Shown: positions 1,855 to 42,642 of the stretch, piece by piece
Layout of the letters: each line of letters opens with the position of its first letter
Numbering within the stretch: position 1 is the first letter of the stretch
DNA from: Paracidovorax avenae ATCC 19860
GTDB taxonomy: Bacteria; Pseudomonadota; Gammaproteobacteria; Burkholderiales; Burkholderiaceae_C
NCBI RefSeq assembly: GCF_000176855.2
Contig: NC_015138.1
Coordinates: 2,046,001-2,110,000, forward strand
Reading direction: 5' to 3'
DNA length: 64,000 bases
Notes under the pieces: model-generated
Database searches by the model: none
Seen by the model: only the letters and a program-made list of their open reading frames with translations
What the model was told of the DNA's origin: nothing
Made by a program: the position numbers and the translations under genes

Positions 1855-1867
1855 AAGGACGGACGCG

Positions 1868-2260
1868 ATGGATATTCCGCATTCGGCCGCCCCGGCGGCC
1901 TCCGGCGAGCACATCGCCGTGCCGCTCTACCGGCTCGCGCACGGGCGCACGGGCGACAAGGGCAACCGCTCGAACATCAGCGTGATCGCCTGGCATCCTG
2001 CGCTCTGGGATGTGCTGGTGGAGCAGGTCACCGAGGACGCCGTGGCGCGCCGCTTCGACCAGCGCCGGCCGAGCCGCGTGCGCCGCTACCTGCTGCCGCA
2101 ACTGCACGCGATGAACTTCGTGATCGACGACGTACTCGACGGCGGCGTGAACGATTCCCTCAACCTCGACAGCCACGGCAAGGCGCTCGCCTACCTGCTG
2201 CTGGACCTGCCCCTGCAGGTGCCCGCCGCTCTGGCGCCGCACCTGGCCGGCCCGCCCTGA
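1868..2260 (+). CDS. AtuA-associated small protein (detached C-terminal domain)
   Basis: This 130-residue protein matches the C-terminal domain found fused to AtuA in longer relatives. The key block is RLAHGRTGDKGNRSNISVIA at about residues 20-39, followed by a histidine-tyrosine rich stretch and the ending NLDSHGKALAYLLLDLPL. The ATG at 1868 is preceded by AAAGGACGG and lies just after the stop of the partner gene, so translation is probably coupled. Upstream in-frame sequence overlaps the AtuA gene and is not used. The two products presumably form one functional unit. A precise biochemical function cannot be read from the sequence. Confidence 0.8.
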   Translation: MDIPHSAAPAASGEHIAVPLYRLAHGRTGDKGNRSNISVIAWHPALWDVLVEQVTEDAVARRFDQRRPSRVRRYLLPQLHAMNFVIDDVLDGGVNDSLNLDSHGKALAYLLLDLPLQVPAALAPHLAGPP

Positions 2261-2312
2261 CGGCGGAGCGCACGCACCTTCCCACATAAATCCACAAGGA
2301 GACAAAGCCACC

Positions 2313-3305
2313 ATGAACCATTCCGCCTCCCGCCCGTTGCGCCGCCGCGTGGCCCTGGCCGCCGCATTCGCCCTGTTCGGCCCGGCCGCATCCGTCATGG
2401 CCCAGCCGGCCGCCTATCCGTCCAAGCCCCTCACCTTCGTGGTGCCCTTCGCCGCCGGCAGCGCCACGGATCAGCTCGCGCGCGCCCTGGGGCAGGCGAT
2501 CACCACCGATACGAAACAGCCCGTGGTCGTGGACAACAAGGCCGGCGCGAGCGGCATGATCGCCGCGCAGGCGGTGGCCAAGGCGCCGCCGGACGGCTAC
2601 ACGGTGCTCATCACCACGAACACCACCCATGCGGCCAACGAGCACCTGTACCGCAAGCTGCCCTATGACCCGGTGAAGGATTTCGTGCCCGTCACGGGCC
2701 TCGGCAAGGGCGGCCAGGTGCTGGTGGTGAATGCCGGTGCTCCCTACCGCAGCGTGGCCGACCTGCTGGCCGCCGCGAAGAAGAACCCGGGCAAGCTGAG
2801 CTTCGGCAGCGGCAGTTCCTCCAGCCGCATGGCCGGGGAAATGCTCAAGCAGCTGGCGGGCGTGGACATCCTGCACGTGCCCTACAAGAGCAATCCGCTC
2901 GCCATCACCGACCTGCTGGGCGGGCAGATCGACATGATGATCACCGACACCTCCACCGGCGTGCCGCAGATCAAGTCGGGCAAGCTGCGCGCGCTGGGCT
3001 ATTCCACGCAGAAGCGCAGCGCGCAGTTGCCGGACGTGCCGACCCTGGAGGAGGCAGGCGTCAAGGGCTACGACATGGGCTACTGGTTCGCGGCCTACGT
3101 GCCCGCCGGTACGCCGGCACCGGTGGTGTCGCGGCTGAACGAGCTGCTGACCGCAGCCACGCAGAGCGCCGCGGCGAAGTCGTTCTACGACACCGCCGGC
3201 TCCGAGCCCTGGACCACCACCTCGGCCGAGCTGGCCCGCTTCCAGGCGGCCGAGACGCAGAAGTGGGGCAAGGTGATCAAGGCCGCCGGCATCGATCCGG
3301 AATAG
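2313..3305 (+). CDS. Bug/TctC-family periplasmic substrate-binding protein
   Basis: This 330-residue protein is a tripartite tricarboxylate transporter receptor of the Bug family, greatly expanded in Comamonadaceae and Bordetella. A Sec signal peptide (RRRVALAAAFALFGP, cleavage near VMAQP about residue 31) leads into the family signature YPSKPLTFVVPFAAGSATD. Later blocks are VVDNKAGASGMIAAQAVAKA, DGYTVL, the HVPYKS loop that contacts carboxylate ligands, and VPTLEEAGVKGYD. No TctA/TctB membrane genes are adjacent, which is typical of orphan Bug receptors. It is probably co-transcribed with the AtuA pair and may bind the carboxylate that pathway consumes; the ligand is unknown. Confidence 0.93.
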   Translation: MNHSASRPLRRRVALAAAFALFGPAASVMAQPAAYPSKPLTFVVPFAAGSATDQLARALGQAITTDTKQPVVVDNKAGASGMIAAQAVAKAPPDGYTVLITTNTTHAANEHLYRKLPYDPVKDFVPVTGLGKGGQVLVVNAGAPYRSVADLLAAAKKNPGKLSFGSGSSSSRMAGEMLKQLAGVDILHVPYKSNPLAITDLLGGQIDMMITDTSTGVPQIKSGKLRALGYSTQKRSAQLPDVPTLEEAGVKGYDMGYWFAAYVPAGTPAPVVSRLNELLTAATQSAAAKSFYDTAGSEPWTTTSAELARFQAAETQKWGKVIKAAGIDPE

Positions 3306-3473
3306 GCCCCGTATCCGCGCCTGCTGTGCCGGTTGCCCGCCCGGCAGTCCGCACGGGGCGCTTCGTGCCCGGAACGCATGGCGTCGCGCATCGCCAGGGG
3401 TGGTCGCGTCCTGGACTCCTGCGTTTCTGGTGGCGCTTTCGTATTCCACAACGACAACACTGGAGACATCGCC

Positions 3474-5633
3474 ATGCATTTTTCTCGAGCCCTTTCCCGG
3501 CGCGCCCGTCCGCGGCGCCCATTCCCCGCTGCGGCCGCCGTGGCGCTCGCGGCCACCGCGCTGCTGGCCGCATGCGGCGGCGGCGGTTCATCGACTCTGG
3601 CAGAGGGTGCGCCGAAGCTGCGCCTGACCATCGCTGCCACGGAAGACTTTCCGGGCAGCTTCGGCAGTGTGGGCGCCTATGAAAAGGTGTCAGGCACGGT
3701 GCAGGGCGAACTCGATCCGGCGGACCCGCGCAACGCGGTCATCCAGGACCTGCAGCTCGCTCCACGCAACAGCCGCGGCATGGTGGTGTACAGCGCCGAC
3801 TTCGTGCTGCTCAAGCCCAAGGACATGTCCAAGGCCGGGGGCGTGCTGCGCTACGACGCGCCCAACCGCGGCAACATCCTCACGCTGCCCAATCCGGCGG
3901 CCGTACCGGGCGATGCGGTGTACTTCGAGCGGGGCTACACCTTCCTCTATTCCGCATGGCAGGGCGACGTGCCCAAGAGTTCGCCCGCGCGGCTCACCGC
4001 CACCGTGCCCGTGGCCCGCAATGCCGACGGCAGCAGCATCACCGGCCCGTACCGCACGGAGCTGGTCCCCACCGCCGCGGCCGCGGCCATGGCGCTGCCC
4101 GGAGGCGTCTTCAACGGCACCATGATTCCCTACGAGCCCGCGGGCCTGGACAACACGCAGCCGGGCTATTCGCTCACGCGCCGCCGCAACGAGACGGACG
4201 CGCGCGAAGCCATACCCGCCGCGGACTGGAAGTTCGCTACCTGCGATACCGGTGCCAACCCGTTCCCGGGCACGCCCAGCCCCGCCAGCGTCTGCCTGCG
4301 CGGCGGGTTCGATCCGCAGTATCTGTACGAACTGGTCTATGTGGCCAAGGATCCGAAGGTCATGGGCGTGGGGCTTGCCGCGCTGCGCGATACCGTGGGC
4401 TTCTTCCGCGGCAGGGCCGCCGATGCGGATGGCCGGGCCAATCCGCTGGCGGGCCGCATCACGCACGTCATCGGGCAGGGCACGTCCCAGTCGGGCAATG
4501 CCATGAAGACCTTCCTGCACCTGGGCTTCAACCAGCGGCTGGACGGTGGCATGGTGTTCGACGGCATCTACGCCCACGTCGCCGCGCGCCAGACCAACGT
4601 CAACACCCGCTTCGCCGTACCCGGCGGCGGCGGCGGCCTGCGCACCGACCACACGGCCTTCGGGCAGACGGCGCCGCGCGGCCTGGCGGCGGATTACGTG
4701 GATGCCGTGAGCGGCCGCGAGGGTGGCGTGATGCGCCGCTGCAGCGCGACCGGCACCTGCCCGCGTTTCTTCCTAGGCCTGTCGGGCACCGAGTTCTGGC
4801 AGCTGCAGGGCTCGCCCGTGCTCACCGATGCGCAGGGCCAGCGCGACATCGCCCAGCCCGCCAACGCGCGCATCTACTACTACGCGAGCACGCAGCACGG
4901 CGGGGCGGGCGGGGTGGAAAGCATCAGCTACACACCCTCGCGCACTGTCTATCCCGCCGGCACCGTGGTGCATTTCAACGACACCTTCCGGGCGCTGTTC
5001 CTCGCGCTGGAGGACTGGGTGGTGCGCGGCACGGAGCCGCCGGCCAGCCAGGTGCCCCGCATCGCCGACGGCACGCTGGTGCGCCCGGCCCAGGTCGCCT
5101 ATCCGGCCATGAAGGGACTGGCCTGGAGCGCGGGAGGCGTGCAGACACCGATTCCGGAATTCCGTTACCAGGCGCGCTACAACGGCTTCACCCTGCTGGA
5201 CTTCGGTCCGCAATATGTTCCCCAGGACGAGTCGGGCATCGCCACGGTGCTGCCTCCACGGACGGTGGGGCGCGACTATGCCATCCTGGTGCCGCAGGTG
5301 GATCCGGCGACCGGGCTGGCGCGGGCCGGCATCCAGAGCGTGGAAGCCCAGGCGCCGCTGGGCACGAGCATCGAGTTCAACGAGGTGGCCACACCCGGTA
5401 TCGTCGATCTCGCCAACCTCACGGGCAGCTTCATCCCGTTCCACAAGACACGCGCTGCGCGCCTGGCCGCGGGCGACGGGCGGCCGTCGCTGGAGGAGCT
5501 GTACGGATCGCAGGCGGGGTACGTGGCCGCCGTGTCCCGCGCCGCCGACGGGCTGGTGGCGCAGCGCCTGCTGCTGCGCCGCGACGCCGACGCGATCGTG
5601 GCCAAGGCGCGGGCGGCCAACATCCTGCCCTGA
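3474..5633 (+). CDS. large lipoprotein alpha/beta-hydrolase-domain protein
   Basis: This product is about 719 residues from the ATG at 3474, which follows TGGAGAC. The N-terminus is a lipoprotein signal ending in LLAACGGGG, with Cys34 as the lipidated residue, so the protein should be exported and membrane-anchored. The middle carries a hydrolase nucleophile elbow, GQGTSQSGNAMK, followed by FDGIYAHVAAR, as in the alpha/beta hydrolase domain family of large secreted esterases. The ending NEVATPGIVDLANLTGSFIP with PSLEELYGS is typical of these proteins. The substrate is not predictable; hydrolysis of an ester or polyester is the family expectation. It stands alone between the transport gene and the cytochromes. 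Confidence 0.75.
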   Translation: MHFSRALSRRARPRRPFPAAAAVALAATALLAACGGGGSSTLAEGAPKLRLTIAATEDFPGSFGSVGAYEKVSGTVQGELDPADPRNAVIQDLQLAPRNSRGMVVYSADFVLLKPKDMSKAGGVLRYDAPNRGNILTLPNPAAVPGDAVYFERGYTFLYSAWQGDVPKSSPARLTATVPVARNADGSSITGPYRTELVPTAAAAAMALPGGVFNGTMIPYEPAGLDNTQPGYSLTRRRNETDAREAIPAADWKFATCDTGANPFPGTPSPASVCLRGGFDPQYLYELVYVAKDPKVMGVGLAALRDTVGFFRGRAADADGRANPLAGRITHVIGQGTSQSGNAMKTFLHLGFNQRLDGGMVFDGIYAHVAARQTNVNTRFAVPGGGGGLRTDHTAFGQTAPRGLAADYVDAVSGREGGVMRRCSATGTCPRFFLGLSGTEFWQLQGSPVLTDAQGQRDIAQPANARIYYYASTQHGGAGGVESISYTPSRTVYPAGTVVHFNDTFRALFLALEDWVVRGTEPPASQVPRIADGTLVRPAQVAYPAMKGLAWSAGGVQTPIPEFRYQARYNGFTLLDFGPQYVPQDESGIATVLPPRTVGRDYAILVPQVDPATGLARAGIQSVEAQAPLGTSIEFNEVATPGIVDLANLTGSFIPFHKTRAARLAAGDGRPSLEELYGSQAGYVAAVSRAADGLVAQRLLLRRDADAIVAKARAANILP

Positions 5634-27985: not shown

Positions 27986-28085
27986 CTGGGGCCGCGGGGG
28001 CTTCGGGTGCCATGACGAATTCAAGGCTCTGGGCTCTCGGCTCTGGGCTATTCTGGTCTGATTGCCAGGGTCTGGTCGGTTTGGT

Positions 28086-28129
28086 AAAGTCTGGTCTGAA
28101 TTCTTGTTCAGGCCAGACTTTTCTTTTTT
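28086..28129 (+). terminator. intrinsic terminator or attenuator before the vapBC-type pair
   Basis: AAAGTCTGG at 28086-28094 pairs with CCAGACTTT at 28113-28121; an inner stem CTGAA/TTCAG closes a 6-base loop; TCTTTTTT follows. It is oriented rightward, 17 bases before the antitoxin start, so it either ends guaB transcription or limits expression of the toxin-antitoxin operon. Confidence 0.7.
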
Positions 28130-28146
28130 CCGGAAGCCTTTCGCGC

Positions 28147-28410
28147 ATGCAGACCGTCGGCATCTACGAAGCCAAGACCCGCTTTTCCGCGCTCATCGAG
28201 GCGGTGGAGCAGGGCGAGGAGGTGCGCATCACCCGCCATGGCAAGGAGGTGGTGCGCATGCTGCCGGTGCGGCGCCGGCCGGTGATCACCGACGAGCAGA
28301 TCGCGCGCGAGCTGGGGCAGATCGATGCGCTGCATGCCAGCATCCGTGCAGCGACCCAGGACACGGCGGCGCCGGCCCTGCGCCGCAGCGGACGGAGCAC
28401 CGCCGCATGA
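28147..28410 (+). CDS. Phd/YefM-family antitoxin
   Basis: This 87-residue protein is a Phd/YefM antitoxin. The N-terminal DNA-binding part reads VGIYEAKTRFSALIEAVEQG followed by EEVRITRHGKEVVRMLPV, the usual fold. The C-terminal arm, rich in charge, would wrap the toxin. The ATG at 28147 is taken because MQTVGIYEAK is the normal start; it lies just after the hairpin at 28086. Its last codon overlaps the toxin gene by ATGA, so the two are co-translated and the antitoxin comes first, as expected. It should repress its own operon. Confidence 0.9.
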   Translation: MQTVGIYEAKTRFSALIEAVEQGEEVRITRHGKEVVRMLPVRRRPVITDEQIARELGQIDALHASIRAATQDTAAPALRRSGRSTAA

Positions 28411-28853
28411 CCATGTCCACCACTGCCTTCGTGCTCGACGCCTCCGTGACCGCCGCCTGGCTGCTGCCCGATGCGGCCAGCGAGCATACGCGGCGCCTCT
28501 ATGCCCGCATCCGCCGCGACGAGGTCGAGCCGCAGGCACCGAATCTCTGGCAGTGGGAATGCGGCAACCTGATCGCGAGCGGCGTGCATGCCGGCCGCAT
28601 TCCTGCAGGCTCCGTCGAGGGGCTCTGGGCCGTGCTCGAGGCCATCCGCCACCGGGTGGAGCTGCACGAACTGGCGCCCGCGCAGCACAAGGCCGTGCTC
28701 GATGTCGCGCTGGACACCGGCCTGCCGGTCTATGACGCCGCCTATCTCTGGCTCGCGCGCTCGCTGCGCCTGCCGCTGGCCACGTTCGATACCGCCCAGG
28801 CCGAGGCCGCAACGCGCACCGGCGTGGCGCTGCTCGACCTGTCCACGTTCTGA
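28407..28853 (+). CDS. VapC-type PIN-domain ribonuclease toxin
   Basis: This 148-residue protein has a PIN domain. The acidic active-site residues are visible as [14 protein letters not shown] near the start (Asp about 11), [11 protein letters not shown] (Glu about 51) and [15 protein letters not shown] (Asp about 111), with PLATFDTAQ near the end. PIN toxins of this type cleave RNA, often tRNA. The start overlaps the antitoxin stop. The pair sits between guaB and guaA, an unusual position that puts a mobile stability module inside the GMP biosynthesis region. Confidence 0.92.
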
Positions 28854-28908: not shown

Positions 28909-30534
<1,626 letters not shown>

Positions 30535-30834: not shown

Positions 30835-32091
30835 ATGCTGACCGATGCTGCGCTACGAAATTTGAAGCCCAAGGCCAAGCCCTACAAGGCTTCTGACCGC
30901 GATGGGCTTTACGTGACGGTATTGCCGAGTGGTACCGTCACCTTCCGCTACGACTACCGCCTCAATGGCCGCCGCGAGACCTTGACCCTGGGGCGCTATG
31001 GCGCTGGCGGTATCTCGCTGGCGATGGCGCGCGAACTGCTGCTGGAGGCGCGCAAATCGGTTCAGGCAGGCGTCTCGCCTGCGATCGAGAAGCAGCGGGC
31101 CAAGCGGCGGGTTACCGCCATCAAGACCTTTGGGGCGGCGATGGATGCGTGGCTGGCCAATGCCAGGTTGGCCGACAGCACGCGCGCCATGCGCAAGCAC
31201 ATCATCGACCGGGACATCCTGCCGGTCTTCCGCCACCGCCTGCTGACCGAGATCCAGGCGGATGACCTGCGGGCTCTGTGCAACAAGGTCAAGGAGCGTG
31301 GTGCGCCGGCGACCGCGGTCCAGATCCGGGACATCGTCAAGCAGGTCTATGTCTATGCCATCGCCCAGGGCGAGAAGGTAGAGAACCCGACGGATAGCGT
31401 CAGCGCTTCATCGATCGCCACCTTCACACCCAAGGACCGCGCTTTGTCGCCGCTGGAGATCAGGCTGATGCTGCAACAACTGGAGTCGGTGGCGACCTAT
31501 CCGACGATCAGGCTGGCGTTGCGTCTGGTTCTCCTGACGCTGGTTCGCAAGAGCGAACTGATCCATGCCACCTGGGACGAGGTGGATTTCGAGCGGAAGA
31601 CCTGGACGATTCCCAAGGCGCGGATGAAGGGGCGCAATCCGCACGTGGTCTACCTGTCGAAACAAGCGCTCGACATCTTCGTGACGTTGCATGCGTGCGC
31701 GGCGGGTTCGAGGTTCGTTTTCCCGTCCCGATACGATGCGGAGCGCTGCATGTCCAATGCGACGTTGAACCGGGTGACGCAACTCATCGTCGAAGAAGCC
31801 AGGGGCAAGGGCCTGCCGTTGCAGCCGTTCACCGTTCATGACCTTCGACGGACAGGCTCGACGCTATTGAACGAAATCGGATTCAACCGCGACTGGATCG
31901 AAAAGTGCCTTGCGCACGAGGATGGGCGCTCGTCGCGGTCCGTCTACAACAAGGCCGAGTACGCCGAACAGCGGCGTCACATGCTGCAGGAGTGGGCCAA
32001 CCTGGTCGGTGCCTGGGAACAGGGACAGGACTACGTTCCGAAGCTAGTCCCGAGGAACGTGGTCGTGCCCGGATTGAGTGCAGTGGCATGA
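30835..32091 (+). CDS. P4-type tyrosine recombinase (island integrase)
   Basis: This 418-residue integrase has the N-terminal DUF4102 arm-binding domain (MLTDAALRNLKPKAKPYKAS, then DGLYVTVLPSGT), a core-binding SAM-like domain to about residue 190, and the catalytic domain. The active-site set is Arg238 (LVRKSELIH), His335 and Arg338 (HDLRR), His361 (LAHEDG) and nucleophile Tyr371 (SVYNKAEY). All are present, so it looks active. It follows guaA and would excise or insert the island at the guaA end. The long C-terminal tail beyond the tyrosine (about 45 residues) is normal. Confidence 0.95.
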   Translation: MLTDAALRNLKPKAKPYKASDRDGLYVTVLPSGTVTFRYDYRLNGRRETLTLGRYGAGGISLAMARELLLEARKSVQAGVSPAIEKQRAKRRVTAIKTFGAAMDAWLANARLADSTRAMRKHIIDRDILPVFRHRLLTEIQADDLRALCNKVKERGAPATAVQIRDIVKQVYVYAIAQGEKVENPTDSVSASSIATFTPKDRALSPLEIRLMLQQLESVATYPTIRLALRLVLLTLVRKSELIHATWDEVDFERKTWTIPKARMKGRNPHVVYLSKQALDIFVTLHACAAGSRFVFPSRYDAERCMSNATLNRVTQLIVEEARGKGLPLQPFTVHDLRRTGSTLLNEIGFNRDWIEKCLAHEDGRSSRSVYNKAEYAEQRRHMLQEWANLVGAWEQGQDYVPKLVPRNVVVPGLSAVA

Positions 32092-32149
32092 TCGTGTCTT
32101 GGTTGTCACTTGACAACTTTGTTTGTCGCCACCACACTGGAGGCCGTTG

Positions 32150-32425
32150 ATGGTCCGCCCCTCCCATCCGAAGAAGGAAGTCGAGGAGGCGCTCCGGCAT
32201 GCCGAGGGGCAGGGCTGGCGTGTCGAGGTTGGCGGAAGCCATGCGTGGGGGCGGATCTATTGCCCCTACAACGACCAGGAGTGCCGCTGCGGCGAGTTCT
32301 GCATCACCAGCGTGTGGAGCACGCCGAAGAATCCTGGTAACCACGCACGCGCCTTGCGGCGCGTCGTGGACAACTGCACCACGCACCGCCGCCAGCGCGA
32401 TGCTGGCGTGGGTGTCCAGGAGTAA
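32150..32425 (+). CDS. HicA-like small protein, candidate toxin
   Basis: This 91-residue protein starts at the ATG at 32150, after GGAGG. The pattern VEEALRHAEGQGWRVEVGGS then HAWGRIYCP and VWSTPKNPGNHARALRRVVD resembles the alpha-beta-beta-beta-alpha layout of HicA-type ribonuclease toxins: a helix, a GW strand, a Gly-Ser-His motif and a final helix. A cysteine cluster (CPYNDQECRCGEFC) is unusual for HicA and might bind metal. It is followed after 4 bases by a helix-turn-helix protein, as toxin and antitoxin would be. Toxin function is inference from this layout only. Confidence 0.5.
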   Translation: MVRPSHPKKEVEEALRHAEGQGWRVEVGGSHAWGRIYCPYNDQECRCGEFCITSVWSTPKNPGNHARALRRVVDNCTTHRRQRDAGVGVQE

Positions 32426-32429
32426 CGCA

Positions 32430-32954
32430 ATGGAATACACCTTCACCCTGAAGTACCAACTGGCTGACGAGGACCGCGGCATCGATGCGCTGGTCGAGCG
32501 CTTGGGCGAGGCCGGCTGCGACGATGCGCTGGTCGGCATTGGGCAGCCGGGGCGCCTGGCGCTGGAGTTCACGCGCGAGGCGGCCGATGCCGGCGAGGCG
32601 GTGCGTAGCGCGTTGGCCGATGTGCGCGCCGCGGTGCCTTCAGCGCGGCTGATCGAGGTGGCTCCGGACCTAGTGGGGTTGACCGACGTGGCCGAGATCG
32701 TGGGCGTGTCGCGGCAGAACATGCGCAAGCTGATGCTTGCGCATCCTGGAAGCTTCCCGGCCCCGGTGCATGAGGGCAGCACGTCGATCTGGCATCTGGC
32801 CGACGTGCTGGCTTGGCTGCAGGATCGCGGAGGTTATGCGCTGGCGGAGAATGTGCTGGACGTGGCGCGTGTGGCAATGCAGGCAAATGTGGTGAAGGAG
32901 CGTCTGCGACTGCCGAAGGCAGCAGCGAAGGAACTGGATGCCTTGGTGGGATGA
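32430..32954 (+). CDS. HTH protein, candidate antitoxin/regulator of the HicA-like gene
   Basis: This 174-residue protein begins with a ferredoxin-like strand and helix stretch (YTFTLKYQLADEDRGIDALV) and an FTREAADAGEAVRSALADV helix, which are HicB-like in arrangement. The middle has a helix-turn-helix of AlpA/MerR type: VGLTDVAEIVGVSRQNMRKL, then FPAPVHEGSTSIWHLADVLA. The end is a charged helix. Partnership with the small protein just upstream (4-base gap, AGGAG inside the upstream stop region) suggests a toxin-antitoxin-like module or regulator. It is convergent with the HEPN-motif gene. Confidence 0.5.
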   Translation: MEYTFTLKYQLADEDRGIDALVERLGEAGCDDALVGIGQPGRLALEFTREAADAGEAVRSALADVRAAVPSARLIEVAPDLVGLTDVAEIVGVSRQNMRKLMLAHPGSFPAPVHEGSTSIWHLADVLAWLQDRGGYALAENVLDVARVAMQANVVKERLRLPKAAAKELDALVG

Positions 32955-32983: not shown

Positions 32984-34246
32984 CTACTGTGCCCCGAGTT
33001 GCACGCTCTTGACCCATAGATCGGTCGTCAAATTGGGCATGACAAACCACTGGCCTCCGGCCGTGCCTCGTACCATCGGTTCGAAGGAAGGGTCCGCGTA
33101 CATCGTTCTTATCTCTCCAGAGAACTCGTCGCGACAGCCGGCGACCTCGACCTGGAGATCCACCTTGATCGTGGTGCTGCTCGCGGATGTGTCACGGATG
33201 CTGCTGATAGTCCAATGCAGCACGCGTAGCCCCTTTAGTTCTTTGCGAAGTTGCCCCGCACGATAGGCTACCGAGCGTTGAGGGTAGTCGACGTTTAGCG
33301 CAGCAAGCGCTCCGTAGTTGGATTTTTTCAAAAGCTGCAAGTACTTGGCGGCAATCGCTTCAGGAATCGTTTCGTCGCCCAGATCTGCGCATGTTTCATC
33401 TATGGCCAAGCTGGTGCGGTCAGGTCTGGGTTGCCACGATTCGAACGCCGCCCTGAGCTCTGCTGTTCGGCGCATGGAGGCGGCAATCTCACTGAAGCTG
33501 CCGGGCCGCTGCTCCTCTTCTGCCCGGGCAAGCCGCTGTGCTTCGTCCTTCATGCTGACGAAGTAGTCCACTGTAGCCTGTAGCAGATTGAACGCCTTCG
33601 CCGCGACGATGGGATGTCCGTAGTTCGGGTTCAGTCCATGGACTACGCCATGCCTAAACGGGGCGTCTATAGCGTCCTCACTGAGCTTACGTCGCGTCGC
33701 TCCGAGAACCTTCAGCGCTTCTGCTAACCCGCCTGTACCGCTAGTCTGGGTATCAAAGACTTCTGCGTCTGCGCCGCCAGAAAACGGATGCTTACCAGAA
33801 TTTGTAGTGCAAATCCCGTCGATGATGATGAGTGTGAGAGCAACGGTGCTGAGCCAATCCTCTACCTTGCACCGCTCGATGGCGCGCTCGTAGATCGCTG
33901 CCCAGGGTTGGAACTGGGCCGAATGGAATCTGTAGCCCAACACCTGCAAGGTTTGCTCGTCGAGATGGTGCTGAGTGAGGAGTTGCTCTCCGTGCTCAAC
34001 ACCGCACTTGGCTAGTTCTGCGAGAACCTGCGACGACATACGGTCGTAGTTCGCCCATCCGAGCGGCACGTAACGCTCGGAGAACAGCGAAATATTCATT
34101 TTTATTTCCTGGACGATCGCGAATCGGGATTCCACTTCGCGCCAGCTTTCTCGCACCTTGGGGCTGAAGAGGCCGGCGACCCTGGCCATGAGGCGCATGG
34201 CCGGTAGTTGAGCCGATATGTGGTCGTAGGGAGTCTTAGGTGGCAT
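32984..34246 (-). CDS. unrecognised protein with HEPN-type RHxxxH motif, defence candidate
   Basis: I do not recognise this 420-residue protein as a named family. It is mostly helical with a central segment FRHGVVHGLNPN: Arg198-His199-x3-His203 fits the RX4-6H motif of HEPN ribonucleases, in which the second position is N, D or H. An N-terminal helical domain precedes it, and a beta-rich C-terminal domain (TTIKVDLQVEVAGCRDEFSG) follows. It is divergent from the OLD-type ATPase gene with 298 bases between the starts. Composition is below that of the chromosome. Adjacent defence genes make an RNase effector plausible; HEPN folding needs structural support. Confidence 0.45.
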   Translation of the reverse strand: MPPKTPYDHISAQLPAMRLMARVAGLFSPKVRESWREVESRFAIVQEIKMNISLFSERYVPLGWANYDRMSSQVLAELAKCGVEHGEQLLTQHHLDEQTLQVLGYRFHSAQFQPWAAIYERAIERCKVEDWLSTVALTLIIIDGICTTNSGKHPFSGGADAEVFDTQTSGTGGLAEALKVLGATRRKLSEDAIDAPFRHGVVHGLNPNYGHPIVAAKAFNLLQATVDYFVSMKDEAQRLARAEEEQRPGSFSEIAASMRRTAELRAAFESWQPRPDRTSLAIDETCADLGDETIPEAIAAKYLQLLKKSNYGALAALNVDYPQRSVAYRAGQLRKELKGLRVLHWTISSIRDTSASSTTIKVDLQVEVAGCRDEFSGEIRTMYADPSFEPMVRGTAGGQWFVMPNLTTDLWVKSVQLGAQ

Positions 34247-34377
34247 GTTTTCATCCCCGATCGTCGGCGACCGGCGGTGCCAAGGCGGTGGTCGCGCCGA
34301 CTTCTTTATGTCCTCCTAGGCTGGAAGTGATCCTTAATTCCTCGGCTATCCTACAACATACAAGTTGAGGTTAGACG

Positions 34378-34497
34378 ATTGGTGTCTACGAATCCATCCA
34401 GCTGTTCGCGCGGAATCAGCGCTATCCTGACATCAAGGGGGCGTTCAAATTCGACGCGCTGTTTTCGATCGACGGGAATGCAGTCGACGCCAGCTAA
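34378..34497 (+). pseudogene. short coding-like remnant upstream of the OLD-type gene
   Basis: A 39-codon open stretch ends at TAA 34495. It reads GVYESIQLFARNQRYPDIKG and then AFKFDALFSIDGNAVDAS, which looks like the end of a real protein. There is no start codon and stops lie just upstream, so it is probably the C-terminal remnant of a gene lost from this island. No family is recognised. Confidence 0.3.
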
Positions 34498-34544
34498 GCA
34501 GCTCGATGCCATGAATGGCCAGCGAAAATTAAAGGGAGTTCATC

Positions 34545-36953
34545 GTGAAGCTACAGGCCTATCGGCTACAAAACTATCGCAGGCTGCGTGACGTCGTCAT
34601 CGAACTCGATGATGAGATATCTATCTTTGTCGGCGCCAACAACAGCGGGAAGACGTCTGCTGTCCAAGGGCTGTATTCGATGCTCCGTGGCGATGCCAAG
34701 AAATTCGAAATCTTTGATTTTAGTGCGGCGCTATGGGCTGAAATCGACGCAATCGGAGTGTCGAACCCAGGGGATGAGGAGGCGCCAAAGAAGTTGCCAT
34801 GCATCCTCTTGGATCTTTGGTTCCGCGTCGATGAAGATGATCTCGCCACTGCGATGCCGCTGCTTCCGAGTACTGAGTGGGACGGCAAGTGTGTTGGAAT
34901 CCGTGTGGCGTTCGAGCCTCGTGATGATCACGAGCTAGTCGGTCGGTTCCATGATTTGCATCAGAAGGCTAACAACGCGGCGATTGCGATGGCTGCCAAA
35001 CGTAAAGCCGCTGGTTCCTCTGGAGCCGACGTGGAGACAGGTCATGGGGTCGAGGGATCGGCAGAGGTCAGCGAATACAAGCCTTGGCCGGAAAGCCTGA
35101 CGAAGTACCTCACAAAAGAACTTAGCAAGGAGTACACCTTTCGTTACTACGTACTTGATGAGCGGGCCTTCGACGGTTGTCTGCCCGTAGACGCCAACTA
35201 CGAGCCACTCCCCTTAGGAAAAGAGCCCGGCGGCGCGGCCATTCTCAAGTCGCTAGTCAAGGTGGACTTTCTACGGGCGCAGCGGCACCTTGATGATCCG
35301 GATGCTGGCAGTTCCGACCGCGCCGAAAGCCTTTCGCGGCGCCTAAGTCGGTTCTACCACCGTAATCTTGAGAAGCGTGGCGACGACCACGCTGCTCTCG
35401 AAGCACTTGATACCTCGGAGAGGGAGTTGAACTTCCACCTGAAGGAGGTTTTCAGTGATACTCTCAAGCGCCTAGCTAAGCTCGGTTATCCAGGAGTTAA
35501 TAACCCCGAGATCGTTATTCGGGCTGCATTGGATCCGACCACTGTCATGGGGCAAAACGCCAAGGTTCACTATATGGTTCCAGGCGCTGCAACCGCTCAT
35601 CTTCCTGACAGCTATAATGGTCTTGGGTTCAAGAACTTGGTCTACATGGTGGTTGAATTGCTCGATCTGCACGAGCAGTGGAAAGCTGACGAAGACAAGC
35701 GGGCTCCGCTACATTTGCTCTTTATTGAAGAGCCTGAAGCCCACTTGCATGCGCAGATTCAGCAGGTATTTATCAGAAATGTTTTGCGTTTGCTTGAGGA
35801 TGCCAACGACCATTCGACGTTTTTCCATACGCAACTCGTCATCACCACGCATTCCCCGCACATACTTTACGAGCGTGGCTTCTCGTCCATCCGGTACTTC
35901 CGCCGCGTCAGCGACCAGTTGGATCATCAAACGAACGTACGAAATCTGTCCCTCTTCAAGACGAGCGATACCGACGCTCCAGGACGCGAGTTCCTGCAAC
36001 GGTATTTGAAGCTGACACACTGTGACCTATTTTTTTCCGATGCGGTCATCCTGGTGGAAGGCAACGTCGAGCGTTTGCTCTTGCCTGCGATGATTGAGTT
36101 GGCTGCCAAGCGCCTGCGTTCCTCTGCCCTGACCATTCTCGAAGTCGGAGGCGCGTTCGCGCACCGCTTCCAGGAACTTATCGCCTTCATTGGGCTCACG
36201 ACATTGGTCGTGACAGACCTTGACAGTGTGATAGTCAAGGCGGATGACGAGAACGCCGCCGCACAAACCATCGGCGCTGGCGACACCGTGGACGATGACG
36301 ACGACTTGAAACCATTCGAGGTCGAGGACGACGACGCAACACAACCAAGCGGAAAGAAGAAGTCCAAGAAGCGCGGCAGCACCTGTCACGCGCACGTGGA
36401 TGGTGCTGTAACGTCCAACCAGACCCTCATCAGCTGGATTCCAAGGAAGCGCTCCGTAGCCGAGCTCTGGGAAGTTACAGCGGAGCAGAAGACGTTGTCG
36501 CTGGCAGAAGGGTCCAGTGCAGCGGTCCGCGTGGCCTATCAGACAAAGGTCTCGGTGACGGTGGGTTCGGTGACTGCGCAGCTCTGCGGCCGTACGCTTG
36601 AGGAGGCCTTTGGCCTTGAGAACGCCGATTGGTGTCAGGCTGAGGCGAACCGGGCCGTCGGCCTCAAGCTGAAGTGCGCACCGAACAGTCCCGAGGAACT
36701 GGCTGAAAAGTTGCATGACAGGGTGGTCGGCAAGAACTTCGACAAGACCCGATTTGCGCTGGAGGTCCTCGCAAGTGGGCCGCTCAATGGCTGGAAGGTT
36801 CCCACGTACATCGCCGAAGGTTTGGCCTGGCTTGAGGCGAAAGTGGCCCATGAGCTTGAGGCGGATGCGGCCATCGCCAGCGAGGTTGCGACAATCGAGC
36901 CGAATGCGGCCGGTACTATCTCTGTTATTGCTGGCGCGGAGCAGACAGCATGA
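34545..36953 (+). CDS. OLD-family ATP-dependent nuclease (GajA-like), AAA ATPase plus TOPRIM
   Basis: This 802-residue protein uses a GTG start after AAAGGGAG. The N-terminal ABC-type ATPase has the Walker A loop GANNSGKT (30-37), a Walker B LLFIEEPEAHLH (391-402) and the ITTHSPHIL switch. The TOPRIM nuclease domain has ILVEGNVE (502-509) and LVVTDLDS with Asp558 and Asp560. Inside it a low-complexity acidic insert (about 566-610: DTVDDDDDLKPFEVEDDD then GKKKSKKR) is odd. It is about 200 residues longer than typical GajA. The next gene, a UvrD-like helicase, overlaps by four bases: a Gabija-like or class 2 OLD pair. DNA cleavage during phage attack is the expected role. Confidence 0.85.
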   Translation: MKLQAYRLQNYRRLRDVVIELDDEISIFVGANNSGKTSAVQGLYSMLRGDAKKFEIFDFSAALWAEIDAIGVSNPGDEEAPKKLPCILLDLWFRVDEDDLATAMPLLPSTEWDGKCVGIRVAFEPRDDHELVGRFHDLHQKANNAAIAMAAKRKAAGSSGADVETGHGVEGSAEVSEYKPWPESLTKYLTKELSKEYTFRYYVLDERAFDGCLPVDANYEPLPLGKEPGGAAILKSLVKVDFLRAQRHLDDPDAGSSDRAESLSRRLSRFYHRNLEKRGDDHAALEALDTSERELNFHLKEVFSDTLKRLAKLGYPGVNNPEIVIRAALDPTTVMGQNAKVHYMVPGAATAHLPDSYNGLGFKNLVYMVVELLDLHEQWKADEDKRAPLHLLFIEEPEAHLHAQIQQVFIRNVLRLLEDANDHSTFFHTQLVITTHSPHILYERGFSSIRYFRRVSDQLDHQTNVRNLSLFKTSDTDAPGREFLQRYLKLTHCDLFFSDAVILVEGNVERLLLPAMIELAAKRLRSSALTILEVGGAFAHRFQELIAFIGLTTLVVTDLDSVIVKADDENAAAQTIGAGDTVDDDDDLKPFEVEDDDATQPSGKKKSKKRGSTCHAHVDGAVTSNQTLISWIPRKRSVAELWEVTAEQKTLSLAEGSSAAVRVAYQTKVSVTVGSVTAQLCGRTLEEAFGLENADWCQAEANRAVGLKLKCAPNSPEELAEKLHDRVVGKNFDKTRFALEVLASGPLNGWKVPTYIAEGLAWLEAKVAHELEADAAIASEVATIEPNAAGTISVIAGAEQTA

Positions 36954-38887
36954 GCAGGCGAGTCGATAGCCCGGATACCGATGCGGATCGCGAGATCCAC
37001 GCCTGCATTGCGGCAATGCCTCCGCAGCCCTTCGTTGTTCGTGCAGGCGCAGGTTCTGGCAAGACCACCTCTCTCATCAAGGCGCTGGACTGGGTGGTGT
37101 CTGAGCACGGCGCCAGCATGCGGGCAAAGAAGCAGAAGGTCGCCTGTATCACCTACACAGACCTCGCTGCGAATGAAATGCTGGCGGACGTCAACTCCAA
37201 TCCGTTGGCTCATGTTTCGACTATCCATAGCTTCTATTGGGCCATTGCCAAGACGTTTCAGGCCGATATCAAGATCTGGCTGAATAACGAAATCCGCAGG
37301 CGGATTTCTGAACTGGAAGAAGATTCTAAAAACTACAGTTCGCGCGTTCGGCAGGCCACGCGAGACAGGAACCAGGCGGATCAAGATCGCTATGCCCGAA
37401 ACTTGGAAGCCCTGGGCAGCGTCAAGACGTTCAATTACGGCGTCGGCAGTGACTATGCGAAGGGCATACTTGGCCACGAAGACATCCTTCAGTTCGCTGA
37501 TTTCCTACTCCAGAATCGCCCACTGTTCCGACGTGTCGTAGCGCTGAATTACCCGTTTGTGTTCATTGACGAGAGTCAGGACACATTCCCGAGCGTGGTC
37601 AAGTCCTTCAGGGAAGTTGAGGCCCAGATGCGGGGTAAATTCTGCCTCGGTTTTTTTGGTGACCCGATGCAGTCGATCTTCATGAGAGGCGCTGGGGACA
37701 TCGCGCGCGAAGACCATTGGCGAGCCATTACAAAGCCGGAGAACTTCCGCTGCGCCAAGCAGATCCTGGACGTCGCCAATGCCGTGCGCGCGCATGGCGA
37801 CGGCATGAAGCAAGTCCGCGGGCTGCACGAAAAGATCGATGGTGAGCTCAAGCTCGTGGAGGGCTCGGCCAGAATGTTCGTCTTGCCGAACACGTTGAAC
37901 CGAAATGAGGCTCTGGCAAGGGTCCGAGAATGGAGTGCGGCAGCGAACAACGACGAGGGATGGACTACCCCAGATCTTGCGGTCAAGATCCTTGTTATCG
38001 TGCACCGAATGGCCGCAAGCCGGCTGGGTTTTGGCGGCATCTACTCGGCTCTGAACGACAAGACGTCGGATGCCATGAAGCAGGGGATGCAGGACGGTAC
38101 CGGCTGGCCCGTTCGGCCCTTCCTCAGTTTCGCGCTGCCAATAGTTGCAGCGATGAGCGCCGGCAACGAGTTCGCCGCGATGAATCTGCTCCGGGAATTC
38201 AGCCCTCGCCTAAAGCCTGGCACGCTGACCGGCCGGCGTGTTGCGGGCGTTTTGCGTGAGCTGCGCACAGCCGTTTTGAGACTAGTCGCTATGCTGGATG
38301 AGGCCGGAACCACTGTTGGGGACATAGCCATCCATCTCCGCGACTCAGGCCTATTCGATTTTGACGAGCGTTATGAGCGGGTGCTTGGTTTCGTCCAGGA
38401 CATTAGTGACGTTGCTCAAGAAGCAGAAGCCGCCGATACAGCCCCTGTCGAGGGACGGTCCTTGGACGCGGCGATGGTCAAGTTCTTACGGTGCGCAGCA
38501 CAAGAGCTTCGCCCATACGAACGATACGTCTCTGAAGACTCACCCTTTGCTACGCAGCATGGCGTGAAGGGCGCTGAGTTCGACCGCGTTGTTGTGGTGA
38601 TGGACGAGGACGAGAGCGACTATCGAACGTACAACTACGAGCGGGTCTTTGCCAACGCTGATGCCCGTGCTGCAGATCGTGCACAAGCCCAGAATGGTGA
38701 TGAAAACACTTGGAGCCGAACGCTGCGGTTGTTGTATGTCTGTTGTACTCGCGCCAAGCGAGGACTGGTGCTGACTTTTTTTGTTGCCGACCCGGCGACC
38801 GCCGTAGAAAACGTTGTGTCGAGCGGGATTCTGCCGAGGAGCGCGGTCTTCACGCAGGATGCGCTGGCTGCCCAAGCCATTCGGTAG
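36950..38887 (+). CDS. UvrD/Rep-type helicase (GajB-like)
   Basis: This 645-residue superfamily 1 helicase starts inside the stop of the OLD-type gene (ATGA at 36950-36953). Motifs in order: Walker A GAGSGKT (33-39) in VVRAGAGSGKTTSLIKALDW, ITYTDLAANEM (Ia), STIHSF, Walker B FIDESQDT (205-212), FFGDPMQSIF (III), the ENFRCAKQI (IV) arginine motif, VKGAEFDRVVVV (V) and YVCCTRAKRGL (VI). All are intact. In Gabija, GajB is the helicase partner of GajA; this one is longer than the 500-residue norm. Class 2 OLD nucleases are also encoded next to UvrD/Rep-like helicases. An IS element lies 65 bases past its stop. Confidence 0.9.
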   Translation: MSRRVDSPDTDADREIHACIAAMPPQPFVVRAGAGSGKTTSLIKALDWVVSEHGASMRAKKQKVACITYTDLAANEMLADVNSNPLAHVSTIHSFYWAIAKTFQADIKIWLNNEIRRRISELEEDSKNYSSRVRQATRDRNQADQDRYARNLEALGSVKTFNYGVGSDYAKGILGHEDILQFADFLLQNRPLFRRVVALNYPFVFIDESQDTFPSVVKSFREVEAQMRGKFCLGFFGDPMQSIFMRGAGDIAREDHWRAITKPENFRCAKQILDVANAVRAHGDGMKQVRGLHEKIDGELKLVEGSARMFVLPNTLNRNEALARVREWSAAANNDEGWTTPDLAVKILVIVHRMAASRLGFGGIYSALNDKTSDAMKQGMQDGTGWPVRPFLSFALPIVAAMSAGNEFAAMNLLREFSPRLKPGTLTGRRVAGVLRELRTAVLRLVAMLDEAGTTVGDIAIHLRDSGLFDFDERYERVLGFVQDISDVAQEAEAADTAPVEGRSLDAAMVKFLRCAAQELRPYERYVSEDSPFATQHGVKGAEFDRVVVVMDEDESDYRTYNYERVFANADARAADRAQAQNGDENTWSRTLRLLYVCCTRAKRGLVLTFFVADPATAVENVVSSGILPRSAVFTQDALAAQAIR

Positions 38888-38952: not shown

Positions 38953-40240
38953 GGGAACCTCTCAAAACCCGGCCACTCCCTTGTTCACCGACAAGACCTG
39001 AGCCGTCCTCTTTGCCATGATCTCTCCTCGCAGCGCCTTGAAGTTCGATCTGTTTGCGAGGCGTCGCGCCAGCATAAGAGAGATGAAGTGGGCGATCCGT
39101 TGCAGGTGATCGCGCGGCACATCGACTTCGCCGAGCTGGCGCGGCTGGTGGATGCACTCATCGAGCGCGGCGATGGCCGCAAGGGTGGTCGGCCGGCCTA
39201 TCCCATCGAGGTGATGGTGCGCATCCTAGTCTTGAAGCGCCTGTACAACCTGTCGGACGAGCAGATGGAATACCAGTTGCTGGACCGGGCGAGCTATCAG
39301 CGCTTTTGTCTGCTGCAAGACGCGATGAACGTGCCGGACCGCAACACGATCTGGCGCTTCGGCGAGCGGCTGGGCGTTGACGGGGCGACGGCGTTGTTCC
39401 AGGGTGTGGATGCGCAACTGCACCGCCATGGCTATATCGCCCGGGGCGGACAAGCCATCGATGCCACGCTGGTGCCCGCGCCCCGCCAGCGCCTGGACAG
39501 GCAGGAACGCGAGGCCCTGGCCGAAGGCAGAACGCCCGATTGGAGCGAGGCCGAGCGCCGGCAAAAGGATGTGGCCACGCACACGAAGAAGCACGGCAAG
39601 GGCTACTTCGGCTACAAGCTCAGCGTGAGCGTGGACCTCAAGCACGGCTTCGTCCGCAGGATCGCCACGGGCACGGCCAGCGAGCACGACGGGCACCACT
39701 TCGATGAGGTGCTGGACATGCGCAACAACGGGCGTGCAGTGCATACGGACAAGGCCTACGCGAGTCGGCAGCGCCAGCAGCTACTCAAGGTGCTGGGCTT
39801 GGTGGACGCGATGCAACGCAGGGCCCGGCCGGGCAAGCCCCTGAGCTAGTGCCAGCAAAGGCGCAACCAGCGTATCGCAAAGAAGCGTGCCAAGGTGAAG
39901 CATGTGTTTGCCGGTCTCCGTCACCTGGGCGGCAAGTTCGTTCGCACGATCGGACAGACCCGCGCCACGGTGGGCATGACGATGATGGCCGCCTGCTACA
40001 ACCTCAAGCGCCTGGCGTCGTTCCTGCATCGGCAAGTGGATGCATTCTTCAAACCCGAAAGCGGCACCTGCAAGGCACAGGTGCGCCCGCGTACGGCGAA
40101 CGCATGAGCCGCTGGGGCCGAAAGGCCCCTGAGTACGGGGATCGGCCCCCCAGGGCAGTCGCTATCGCGCTCCCGAAGCAGGTGAATGTGTGCGGATAGC
40201 CTTGATGCTGGGCTCGGATCAGGGGTTGTGAGAGGTTCCC
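38953..40240 (+). mobile_element. IS5-family insertion sequence with decayed transposase
   Basis: The element is 1288 bases. Terminal inverted repeats are GGGAACCTCTCAAAACCC (38953-38970) and, reversed at the other end, GGGTTGTGAGAGGTTCCC (40223-40240): 17 of 18 positions match. TTCG flanks both sides (38949-38952 and 40241-40244), consistent with a 4-base target duplication. The transposase gene within has a frameshift and an in-frame stop, so this copy cannot move on its own. It lies just after the helicase gene and leaves it intact. Confidence 0.8.
39017..40107 (+). pseudogene. IS5-family transposase, frameshifted and interrupted
   Basis: The transposase is recognised by VMVRILVLKRLYNLSDEQME and YQLLDRASYQRF, the catalytic ATLVPAPRQRLDRQ (first Asp), and the HGKGYFGYKLSVSVDLKHG and HTDKAYASRQRQ regions, with the conserved glutamate region at the end. 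Two lesions separate it from an intact gene. The N-terminus from the ATG at 39017 (ISPRSALKFDLFA) runs out of frame with the rest; one base is missing near 39058. A TAG at 39847-39849 replaces the usual Glu codon before CQQRRNQRIAKKRAK. The reading resumes in the same frame to 40107. Confidence 0.85.
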
Positions 40241-40401: not shown

Positions 40402-40770
40402 CTAGGCTTTTAATGAGCGCGTCCGTACAGGACGGGTTTTTCGTTGGCGGACATCGGGCTTGAGGGTGGCTGTGCGAGGTGCCTGCTTGCATTGTTCGAT
40501 CCACGCTTCCACTTCGGCCAAGTCCCACACGACGCAGCGGGGCGTCAGGTTGAAGCGGCGCGGAAACTCGCCGCGGCGCTCCATTTCGTAGATCGTCGTT
40601 TCGGCCAGCGGGACCATCTGATGCAATTCGTGGCGTCGGATGGTGCGGCGGAAGGGAAGGGGACTGCGCTGGGGAAACTGCGGCATTGCCTCATAGGCGT
40701 GCGTGCCTGGGACGGGGAGGGGCTGGGCTGTGTTGCTGTCCTCAACCGGTGCCTGTGATCGTTGTTCCAC
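40402..40770 (-). CDS. AlpA-family DNA-binding regulator
   Basis: This 122-residue protein has a GTG start. Its central part RRHELHQMVPLAETTIYEME then RRGEFPRRFNLTPRCVVWDLAEVEAW is the AlpA/prophage excisionase-type winged helix, common in integrative islands near the integrase or excision module. An N-terminal proline/glutamine-rich segment (about 40 residues) is uninformative. The C-terminal tail is basic. It is separated from the frameshifted gene upstream by about 117 bases. Regulation of island excision is the usual suggestion for such proteins and remains inference here. Confidence 0.75.
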   Translation of the reverse strand: MEQRSQAPVEDSNTAQPLPVPGTHAYEAMPQFPQRSPLPFRRTIRRHELHQMVPLAETTIYEMERRGEFPRRFNLTPRCVVWDLAEVEAWIEQCKQAPRTATLKPDVRQRKTRPVRTRSLKA

Positions 40771-40887: not shown

Positions 40888-42226
40888 CTATCGGCGTCGG
40901 CCGGCTGCTGACTTTTCTTGCGACGGATCGATGATGGCGAGCATGGCCTGTCGGCCACCTTCTTGGTTGGCGCTCAGGACGTCTTTTAATAGTGCGGCTG
41001 ACTGAGCACTGGTGCCAATCCAGCCGGACTTTGCCAACTGGATGAACTCCGAATTGTTCAAGTAGCGCGGGCAGTTGTGATAGCCAACGGATGTGCTCCC
41101 CCTCTTGTTCCTGGCTTCAGGAAGTTGAAGAAACTCGTCCAGATGATCGGCTGACATCGTGATGCCAGAGATCAGGCTTTCGTCGCGTGCATTGGGGCGG
41201 AATTGCTCACAGAATTTGAAGAAGAAGGGCTCGTGGCTCAGCCTGTAGCTCCATAGCGATGGCGATGGCGCGAGGTTTAGGCGGGCGGCGGCGGCCTTGA
41301 AGTTCTTGGTCTTCTGCAACTGAGTAAGAAGGTCTGACGATGGCGGAATCGGATAGCTCCAGCTCTCAGATTCCTTGCGCATGCGCTTGTACTGCAAGAG
41401 GATGTAGTTGTCGTAGCAGCTGTTGTAGATCAGGAGGTCGATGCCCAGTACGGCCTCCAGATTTGTCTGGTCGGTGACGATTACTCGAACCGAGCGATCG
41501 CCGTTGTCAAAAAGTTGCGACCCTGACTGGTCGTTCTCCGAGAAGGCTATTGAAGATCCTGCTGTCGTGCTCCAGTAGCGTGCGCTCATGAACAGGGAGG
41601 GCGTCCAACAGATCCAGCACCGACGTGGCGTTCGGGGCGCGCTCGATGTTCATGGATTTGAGGACTTCCGCCCGGTCCAGCCCTCCAATGTCCAAGGCCA
41701 GGCCGAGGCCGTCTCGCTGCTCATTCAAGCGAAGCTCGCGCTCGCTGGTTTCTGGCAAGCGATGCTGCAAGGTGCGCAGGGCAATGATGTCGTTGATGCG
41801 CTCTGCATCAGCCGGGCGCGCTTGTTGCAGCCGCTCTATGAACTGGTTCCAGGTCTGCCCGTCCAATCGTGTCAATCGCTCCGGAGTGCTCACGAGCGAT
41901 TCCAGGTTCAGTGGCGCCAGCATTCTTGAGGTGATGGGCCGATCGAAGACAAGCAATGGCTTAACCATGCGCATCTTGCGCTTGCCCGAGCCGCCGCTGC
42001 CATGCATGTGTTCCATCATGGCAAACGCATGGATTTGAAGCTGTTCCTGTTGCAGCGCCAGGGCGACCAATTCTCGCGATTCGATGTCCCAGTCGAGCGC
42101 GGAGAACGAGTCCGAAAAATCCACCTGTGGATGCAAACGTTCTTGCAGCCACTGGGTACGCCCAGGTTCGAATGTCAGGATGAAGCCGCCGTATTCGGCT
42201 GGTGCATTCCTTTTCTTTCTTGGCAT
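40888..42226 (-). pseudogene. large island protein of unknown function, single frameshift
   Basis: Two halves read as one gene. The first (42226 down to 41507, about 239 residues) begins MPRKKRNAPAEYGGFILTF and ends with LLEHDSRIFNSLLGERPV then RVATF, at a TGA. The second continues in another frame with DNGDRSVRVIVTDQTNLEAV and ends with KSAAGRR at 40888. Joining ...RVATF to DNGDRSV... needs removal of one base in a run of five (plus strand A's at 41507-41511), so a single-base slip is the probable cause. The full protein would be about 445 residues. Function unknown; similar proteins occur in integrative elements. Confidence 0.6.
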
Positions 42227-42642
42227 CGTGCGATTCCCTTGCCCTTTTGCCAGATGGTATCTCCCTGGATGGTCATAGATAGGCAGTGGGCGTCTCCCGG
42301 CAACGCCGGGCCGCGCTGTCGTGCTGCGCATCGAGCCCCGCTGTGCGCGGGTCTCGCCCCTGGCGGGCATCCATCGTTCCCTCGCTGCACTCGGCTGACG
42401 CCTACGGCGCGGCCCTGCAGGCCACGCCTGCGCGCTTCGCTTGCCGGTCCTGGCTTCGTTTGGGGCCGGGGTGGGCGGAGTTGCCGTTCCCTCGAACGTA
42501 CCACGGCGTTCTCGCCGTCAAGGGCTGCGCGTACCTGTTCGGCACGCTGGCGGCCTGCGGCCGTCTGCGACCCCTGACAGCTTGCGCTGCGCCGTGATGG
42601 CGGCGGTGCCGGGCAATTTCGCCCGAGCAACCGGAGATCGCC
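42227..42642. other. GC-rich ICE-type leader region without recognised gene
   Basis: This 416-base region precedes the small gene at 42643. It has no frame with protein-like features despite long open stretches, which arise from GC richness. The last 40 bases before 42643 (ATGGCGGCGGTGCCGGGCAA to CCGGAGATCGCC) look like a conserved leader of ICE genes known to me; a copy search would test this. CCGGAGATCGCC supplies the ribosome binding site of the next gene. Confidence 0.4.

Follow-up and report, generated by a model that had tools for sequence, protein, structure and literature searches.

We conclude that the locus likely carries two independent defence modules, a Gabija system and a single gene for a probable HEPN-type RNase, as cargo of one island lying downstream of guaA. 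The locus was studied in the window, i.e. the whole stretch of 64,000 nucleotides that was analysed, and its features are given in Table 1. The Gabija system found here is already known in kind, and the family of the 420-aa protein encoded divergently from it is uncharacterised and may encode an RNA-cutting toxin. As Gabija and the 420-aa family almost never occur together in the genomes examined, they are most likely independent cargo modules.

Table 1. Genes of the guaA-downstream locus, with positions in the window
Feature	Position	Strand	Description
Tyrosine integrase	30835..32091	+	Pfam Arm-DNA-bind_3, Phage_integrase
PDC-M06A	32123..32425	+	PADLOC PDLC04385, E=4.3e-54; one of a phage-defence candidate pair
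PDC-M06B	32199..32954	+	PADLOC PDLC04388, E=6.1e-83 across residues 78-250
420-aa protein gene	32984..34246	-	Putative HEPN-type RNase; divergent from gajA
gajA	34545..36953	+	GTG start, 802 aa, OLD-family ATPase-TOPRIM nuclease
gajB	36950..38887	+	645 aa, UvrD-like superfamily 1 helicase

Integrases and genomic islands appear together with guaA in published papers. In the window, the guaA ORF ends at 30534, the integrase starts 300 bp past the 3′ end of guaA, and the PDC-M06A/B pair comes next, ahead of the 420-aa gene. The PDC-M06B ORF exceeds the matched part of its product, and therefore its true start is probably near 32430; this product also resembles excisionase-type regulators (phrog_2620). 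The GC content was 0.66–0.70 over 27–30.5 kb of the window, 0.59–0.65 across the genes for the integrase and PDC-M06, about 0.57 where the 420-aa protein is encoded, 0.54–0.59 over gajA–gajB and 0.57–0.67 past gajB to about 46 kb. An att repeat of the guaA end was not found in the window, where the sole match was 12 bases inside the integrase, and the far end of the island was not found either. We infer that this region is a horizontally acquired island adjacent to guaA. In a Pantoea locus (L009, 7896–14306), a relative of the 420-aa protein is encoded right after guaA (named by reading), with a PDC-M06 pair beyond it and without Gabija, as would be expected if this site takes up cargo in modules.

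Other frames were observed around these genes. Directly downstream of gajB lies an IS5-family transposase frame (39088–39849, 253 aa), which matches positions 7–230 of a 285-position model and is possibly shortened. It is followed by an AlpA-like regulator (40402–40770) that adjoins two ORFs (40888–41589 and 41507–42370), neither of which had a significant family match. Upstream of guaA, a Phd/YefM-type antitoxin frame and a PIN-domain frame (28012–28853; PIN just under the Pfam cut-off) are likely to form a toxin–antitoxin pair. The divergent 420-aa gene and gajA are separated by an intergenic region of 298 bp, in which we found no sigma-70-like promoter; on its plus strand, between 34286 and 34457, there are three terminator-like sites, two of them overlapping, compared with 0.4 in shuffled sequences.

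Judged from its sequence, the gajA–gajB pair is a standard two-gene Gabija. GajA matched the PADLOC model PDLC00095 over positions 1–749 of 752 (E=2e-291) and GajB matched PDLC00143 over positions 1–631 of 632 (E=4.5e-257); in Pfam, the matches were AAA_15 and OLD-like_TOPRIM for GajA and UvrD-helicase for GajB. Consistent with the preliminary description, the OLD-TOPRIM and UvrD-like ORFs overlap by ATGA (the last base of gajA is 36953 and the first of gajB 36950) and their motifs are intact: read from the sequence, GajA has a Walker A motif at G30–T37 and keeps its TOPRIM residues, and GajB has GAGSGKTT and DESQD. The TOPRIM region of GajA aligns gap-free with the solved GajA chains, and its residues E505, G535, D558 and D560 align with E379, G409, D432 and D434, given as the TOPRIM residues of the Bacillus cereus protein in the available part of PMC10781630. 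Hence the OLD-family ATPase of the window has the TOPRIM catalytic residues, and a UvrD-like helicase is encoded immediately downstream of it. The pair had been called Gabija-like, and by the PADLOC GajA and GajB models it is plain Gabija. The greater length of the two proteins had also led to the suggestion of a new, distinct subtype; this was abandoned, as PADLOC models of similar length (752 and 632 positions) are matched end to end. The larger sizes of GajA and GajB lie in the range of the PADLOC models themselves, so that a new subtype is not needed. Relatives of GajA (E up to 1e-50) were present in 11 of 399 genomes from the order, the window's own genome among them, and in 59 plasmid records, and none was present in viral contigs.

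We examined 19 other GajA loci, ten of them from the search of the order, one from a class-wide search with GajB (G591) and eight from the 59 plasmid records. Fourteen of these stretches were 18–19.5 kb long, those of L056, L058, L060, L063 and L072 being shorter. The gajB gene adjoins gajA at all 19 loci (G591 was found through gajB). The preliminary description had asked for a conserved third gene across such OLD and UvrD pairs, and the 420-aa family did not qualify: with two profiles (A1 and A2) and E up to 10, it was found in 0/19 of the stretches examined. Even next to the closest Gabija pair (G098, 85–86% identical), no relative of the 420-aa protein is encoded within 19.5 kb. As for any other recurrent third gene, no cluster occurred in more than three of the 19 loci (LysR-type regulators in three, others in two). 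One of the two-locus neighbour clusters is Shedu-like.

The converse question was asked at 40 further loci with a member of the 420-aa family; a single scan of genome contigs supplied 39 of them and a plasmid the remaining one. Only one of them, within the DNA examined, where several contigs were short, has a Gabija pair. At this Brevundimonas locus (L023), the pair (1064–5205) lies about 4.6 kb from the 420-aa relative with other genes between, and its GajA is of the PDLC00090 type, another subtype than that of the window. A helicase at L031 matches both the GajB and the RTasHel models, with no GajA match at this locus. Weak matches to the GajA profile, and nothing further of Gabija, were seen at L036, L025 and L017; they were left uncounted because there is no GajB match at these loci. 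Adjacency of the 420-aa gene to Gabija therefore does not recur at the loci examined. A HEPN partner of Gabija is not described in the titles and abstract openings of the papers found for Gabija together with HEPN; the terms 'HEPN' and 'accessory' do not occur in the available part of PMC10781630, nor 'accessory' and 'subtype' in that of PMC12407980.

The 420-aa protein has the R198-H199-x3-H203 motif (in the string PFRHGVVHGL) that had been reported for this minus-strand ORF. We shuffled the protein 20,000 times and observed that R[NDH]x3H arises by chance in 6% of the shuffles and the looser Rx4-6H in 88%, and so the motif on its own is weak evidence. Its conservation across the family is stronger evidence than its presence. 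R[NHD]xxxHG is kept in 118 of 119 family proteins, the window's own among them, the single exception being a protein of 276 aa (P0042); R198, G200, H203 and G204 are invariant in 57/57 aligned proteins, and an acidic residue, D143, is invariant in the family alignment. The protein thus has the Rx4-6H pattern in conserved form, its R followed by a polar residue, the property by which PMC3710099 recognizes the HEPN superfamily. The family is uncurated. For the 420-aa protein there was no Pfam family above the cut-off, no PADLOC or NCBIfam match and no significant relative among PDB sequences. The best PDB sequence match to the family profile (E 0.87) was taken as chance, and so were weak Pfam matches of family members, e.g. 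TetR_C_11 in 8/57 (best E 0.006). In the order the family is rare (1/399 genomes at E up to 1e-10, own genome only), and relatives were found neither in viral contigs nor in phage records.

The predicted model of the 420-aa protein (pLDDT 88.3; 60–66 for the block around the motif) has a helical N-terminal region (about 1–270), with the motif at 198–204 inside it, and an NTF2-like C-terminal domain (about 274–412). In the model, the order of the helices would fit HEPN. Among viral folds, the model is matched best by a DUF4209 protein (E 1.4e-4, TM 0.33/0.50, rmsd 14.6; residues covered not given), and no other viral match had E < 0.001. Among the PDB fold matches listed there was no HEPN protein; the NTF2-like domain filled these matches, which are silent on the N-terminal region. 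Curated HEPN profiles matched neither the protein nor its family, and searches for DUF4145 and HEPN_Apea gave no match in its own genome. When the family was compared by hhalign with three DUF4209 frames, chosen by the R[NHD]x3HG pattern within their Pfam match, the scores were within the range of shuffled sequences, although the best alignments set motif on motif. The profile search and structure prediction proposed in the preliminary description gave a helical N-terminal region and a loose DUF4209 match in the prediction, and no match to a curated profile. The earlier assignment as a HEPN-type RNase is plausible: the conserved motif and the fold match speak for it, and the curated profiles and the hhalign scores speak against it. 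From the model and the motif, the protein is probably a HEPN-type RNase.

A constant partner gene was not found at the 40 loci of the family, and close relatives of the 420-aa gene have varied neighbours. The only recurring arrangement is with type I restriction–modification (R-M) genes, seen at 8/40 loci as a raw count with no background rate alongside; the R-M profiles were built from five of these same 40 loci, so that this number is a lower bound. At L019, L021 and L027, a distant relative lies between hsdS and a gene for a YhcG/DUF1016-type nuclease, followed by hsdR, and traces of the order hsdS–relative–hsdR remain at L020 and L036. At L012 and L033, hsdS and hsdM are further away from the relative, and on an Acidovorax plasmid (L064) 311 bp separate a close relative and hsdR. 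The R-M genes were checked against Pfam for L021, for two genes of L012 and for one of L033, the remainder being assigned by similarity to these. This arrangement is reminiscent of the association of HEPN RNases with R-M systems known from the literature. PrrC and RloC, both HEPN-type RNases, often occur in R-M operons (PMC3710099).

Other readings of the locus have to be weighed against that of two independent modules, and the confidences that we attach to them are not mutually exclusive. The preliminary description had proposed a three-component defence, in which DNA cleavage by Gabija is combined with an obligate, divergently encoded HEPN RNase effector. The divergent adjacency across 298 bp, the single lower-GC stretch shared by the 420-aa gene and Gabija, and the Brevundimonas locus as one further case with both families within 5 kb would all agree with such a system, and this last locus also counts against the two-module reading. 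However, in the DNA examined the 420-aa family is absent from 19/19 GajA loci and Gabija from 39/40 family loci, the exception having a different Gabija subtype and intervening genes. The 420-aa gene was thus rejected as a third Gabija component by the distribution in both directions, and we hold the obligate three-component system to be highly improbable. It is unlikely that the R-H-x3-H-G protein is no HEPN RNase and is instead a helical enzyme of another kind, or a binding protein, that ends in an NTF2-like tail. The missing HEPN profile match, the hhalign scores within the shuffles and the loose DUF4209 superposition would be expected of such a protein, but the conserved R-[NHD]-x3-H-G with its polar residue after the R, the invariant D143, the viral fold search, in which a DUF4209 protein alone scored under E 0.001, and a helix order that would fit HEPN all point the other way.

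It is also unlikely, though less so than a three-component system, that the 420-aa proteins are portable RNases of a second line, backing type I restriction in some genomes, and that Gabija may replace the R-M partner here. The relatives within type I R-M (L019, L021 and L027, with traces at L020 and L036), the close relative beside hsdR on the plasmid, the 8/40 loci having type I R-M and the HEPN domains, DUF4209 included, described in R-M operons (available part of PMC3710099; compare PrrC and RloC) argue for this proposal. On the other hand, 32/40 loci are without type I R-M genes by the profiles from five of these loci, the neighbourhoods of close relatives vary, and nothing in the data links the protein functionally to Gabija. 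A bolder form appears quite improbable to us: the R-H-x3-H-G/NTF2-like family would be a new, widespread HEPN RNase of bacteria and archaea, a portable effector that forms the second line behind DNA-cleaving defences unrelated to one another (type I R-M in some genomes and, here, Gabija), with the NTF2-like domain switching it on when the DNA-cleaving layer is inhibited.

In the preferred reading of two independent modules, GajA would cleave invading DNA with GajB as its helicase partner, by analogy with characterised Gabija. The R198-H199-x3-H203 centre is predicted to cleave RNA independently of metals, and a role in sensing, ligand binding or dimerisation would fall to the NTF2-like C-terminal domain. 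We infer for the 420-aa protein an RNase activity, a dormancy or abortive outcome, and a trigger. With this reading, genes that are neighbours by chance are not mistaken for a new three-component Gabija, and notice is drawn to a probably HEPN-type family that is uncurated, has an NTF2-like domain and lies inside the type I R-M operons of several genomes. The family offers a directly testable candidate for a single-gene defence toxin.

Compared with known systems, both genes of PDC-M06, a PADLOC candidate whose name was found in no paper of the literature searched, occur in the window, separate from the Gabija and 420-aa finding. The Gabija pair resembles characterised Gabija in that a UvrD-like helicase comes after an OLD-family ATPase-TOPRIM nuclease and the TOPRIM and helicase residues are kept, and differs in size, GajA having 802 residues vs 578 in the solved Bacillus protein and GajB 645 vs 493–499 in the solved Bacillus proteins. 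The anticodon nucleases PrrC and RloC share the R-M operon setting with the distant 420-aa relatives at type I R-M loci; both contain a fused ABC ATPase (Table 1 of PMC3710099), whereas the 420-aa protein shows none and has an NTF2-like domain. The HEPN family DUF4209/C6orf70 (DUF4209 is among the HEPN domains described in R-M operons in the available part of PMC3710099) is similar to the 420-aa protein in its R-polar-x3-H-G motif and as its top viral fold match. It differs in having no significant profile match with the 420-aa family, and in the place of the motif, which is near the C-terminus in the two long DUF4209 frames and central, with the NTF2-like domain following it, in the 420-aa protein.
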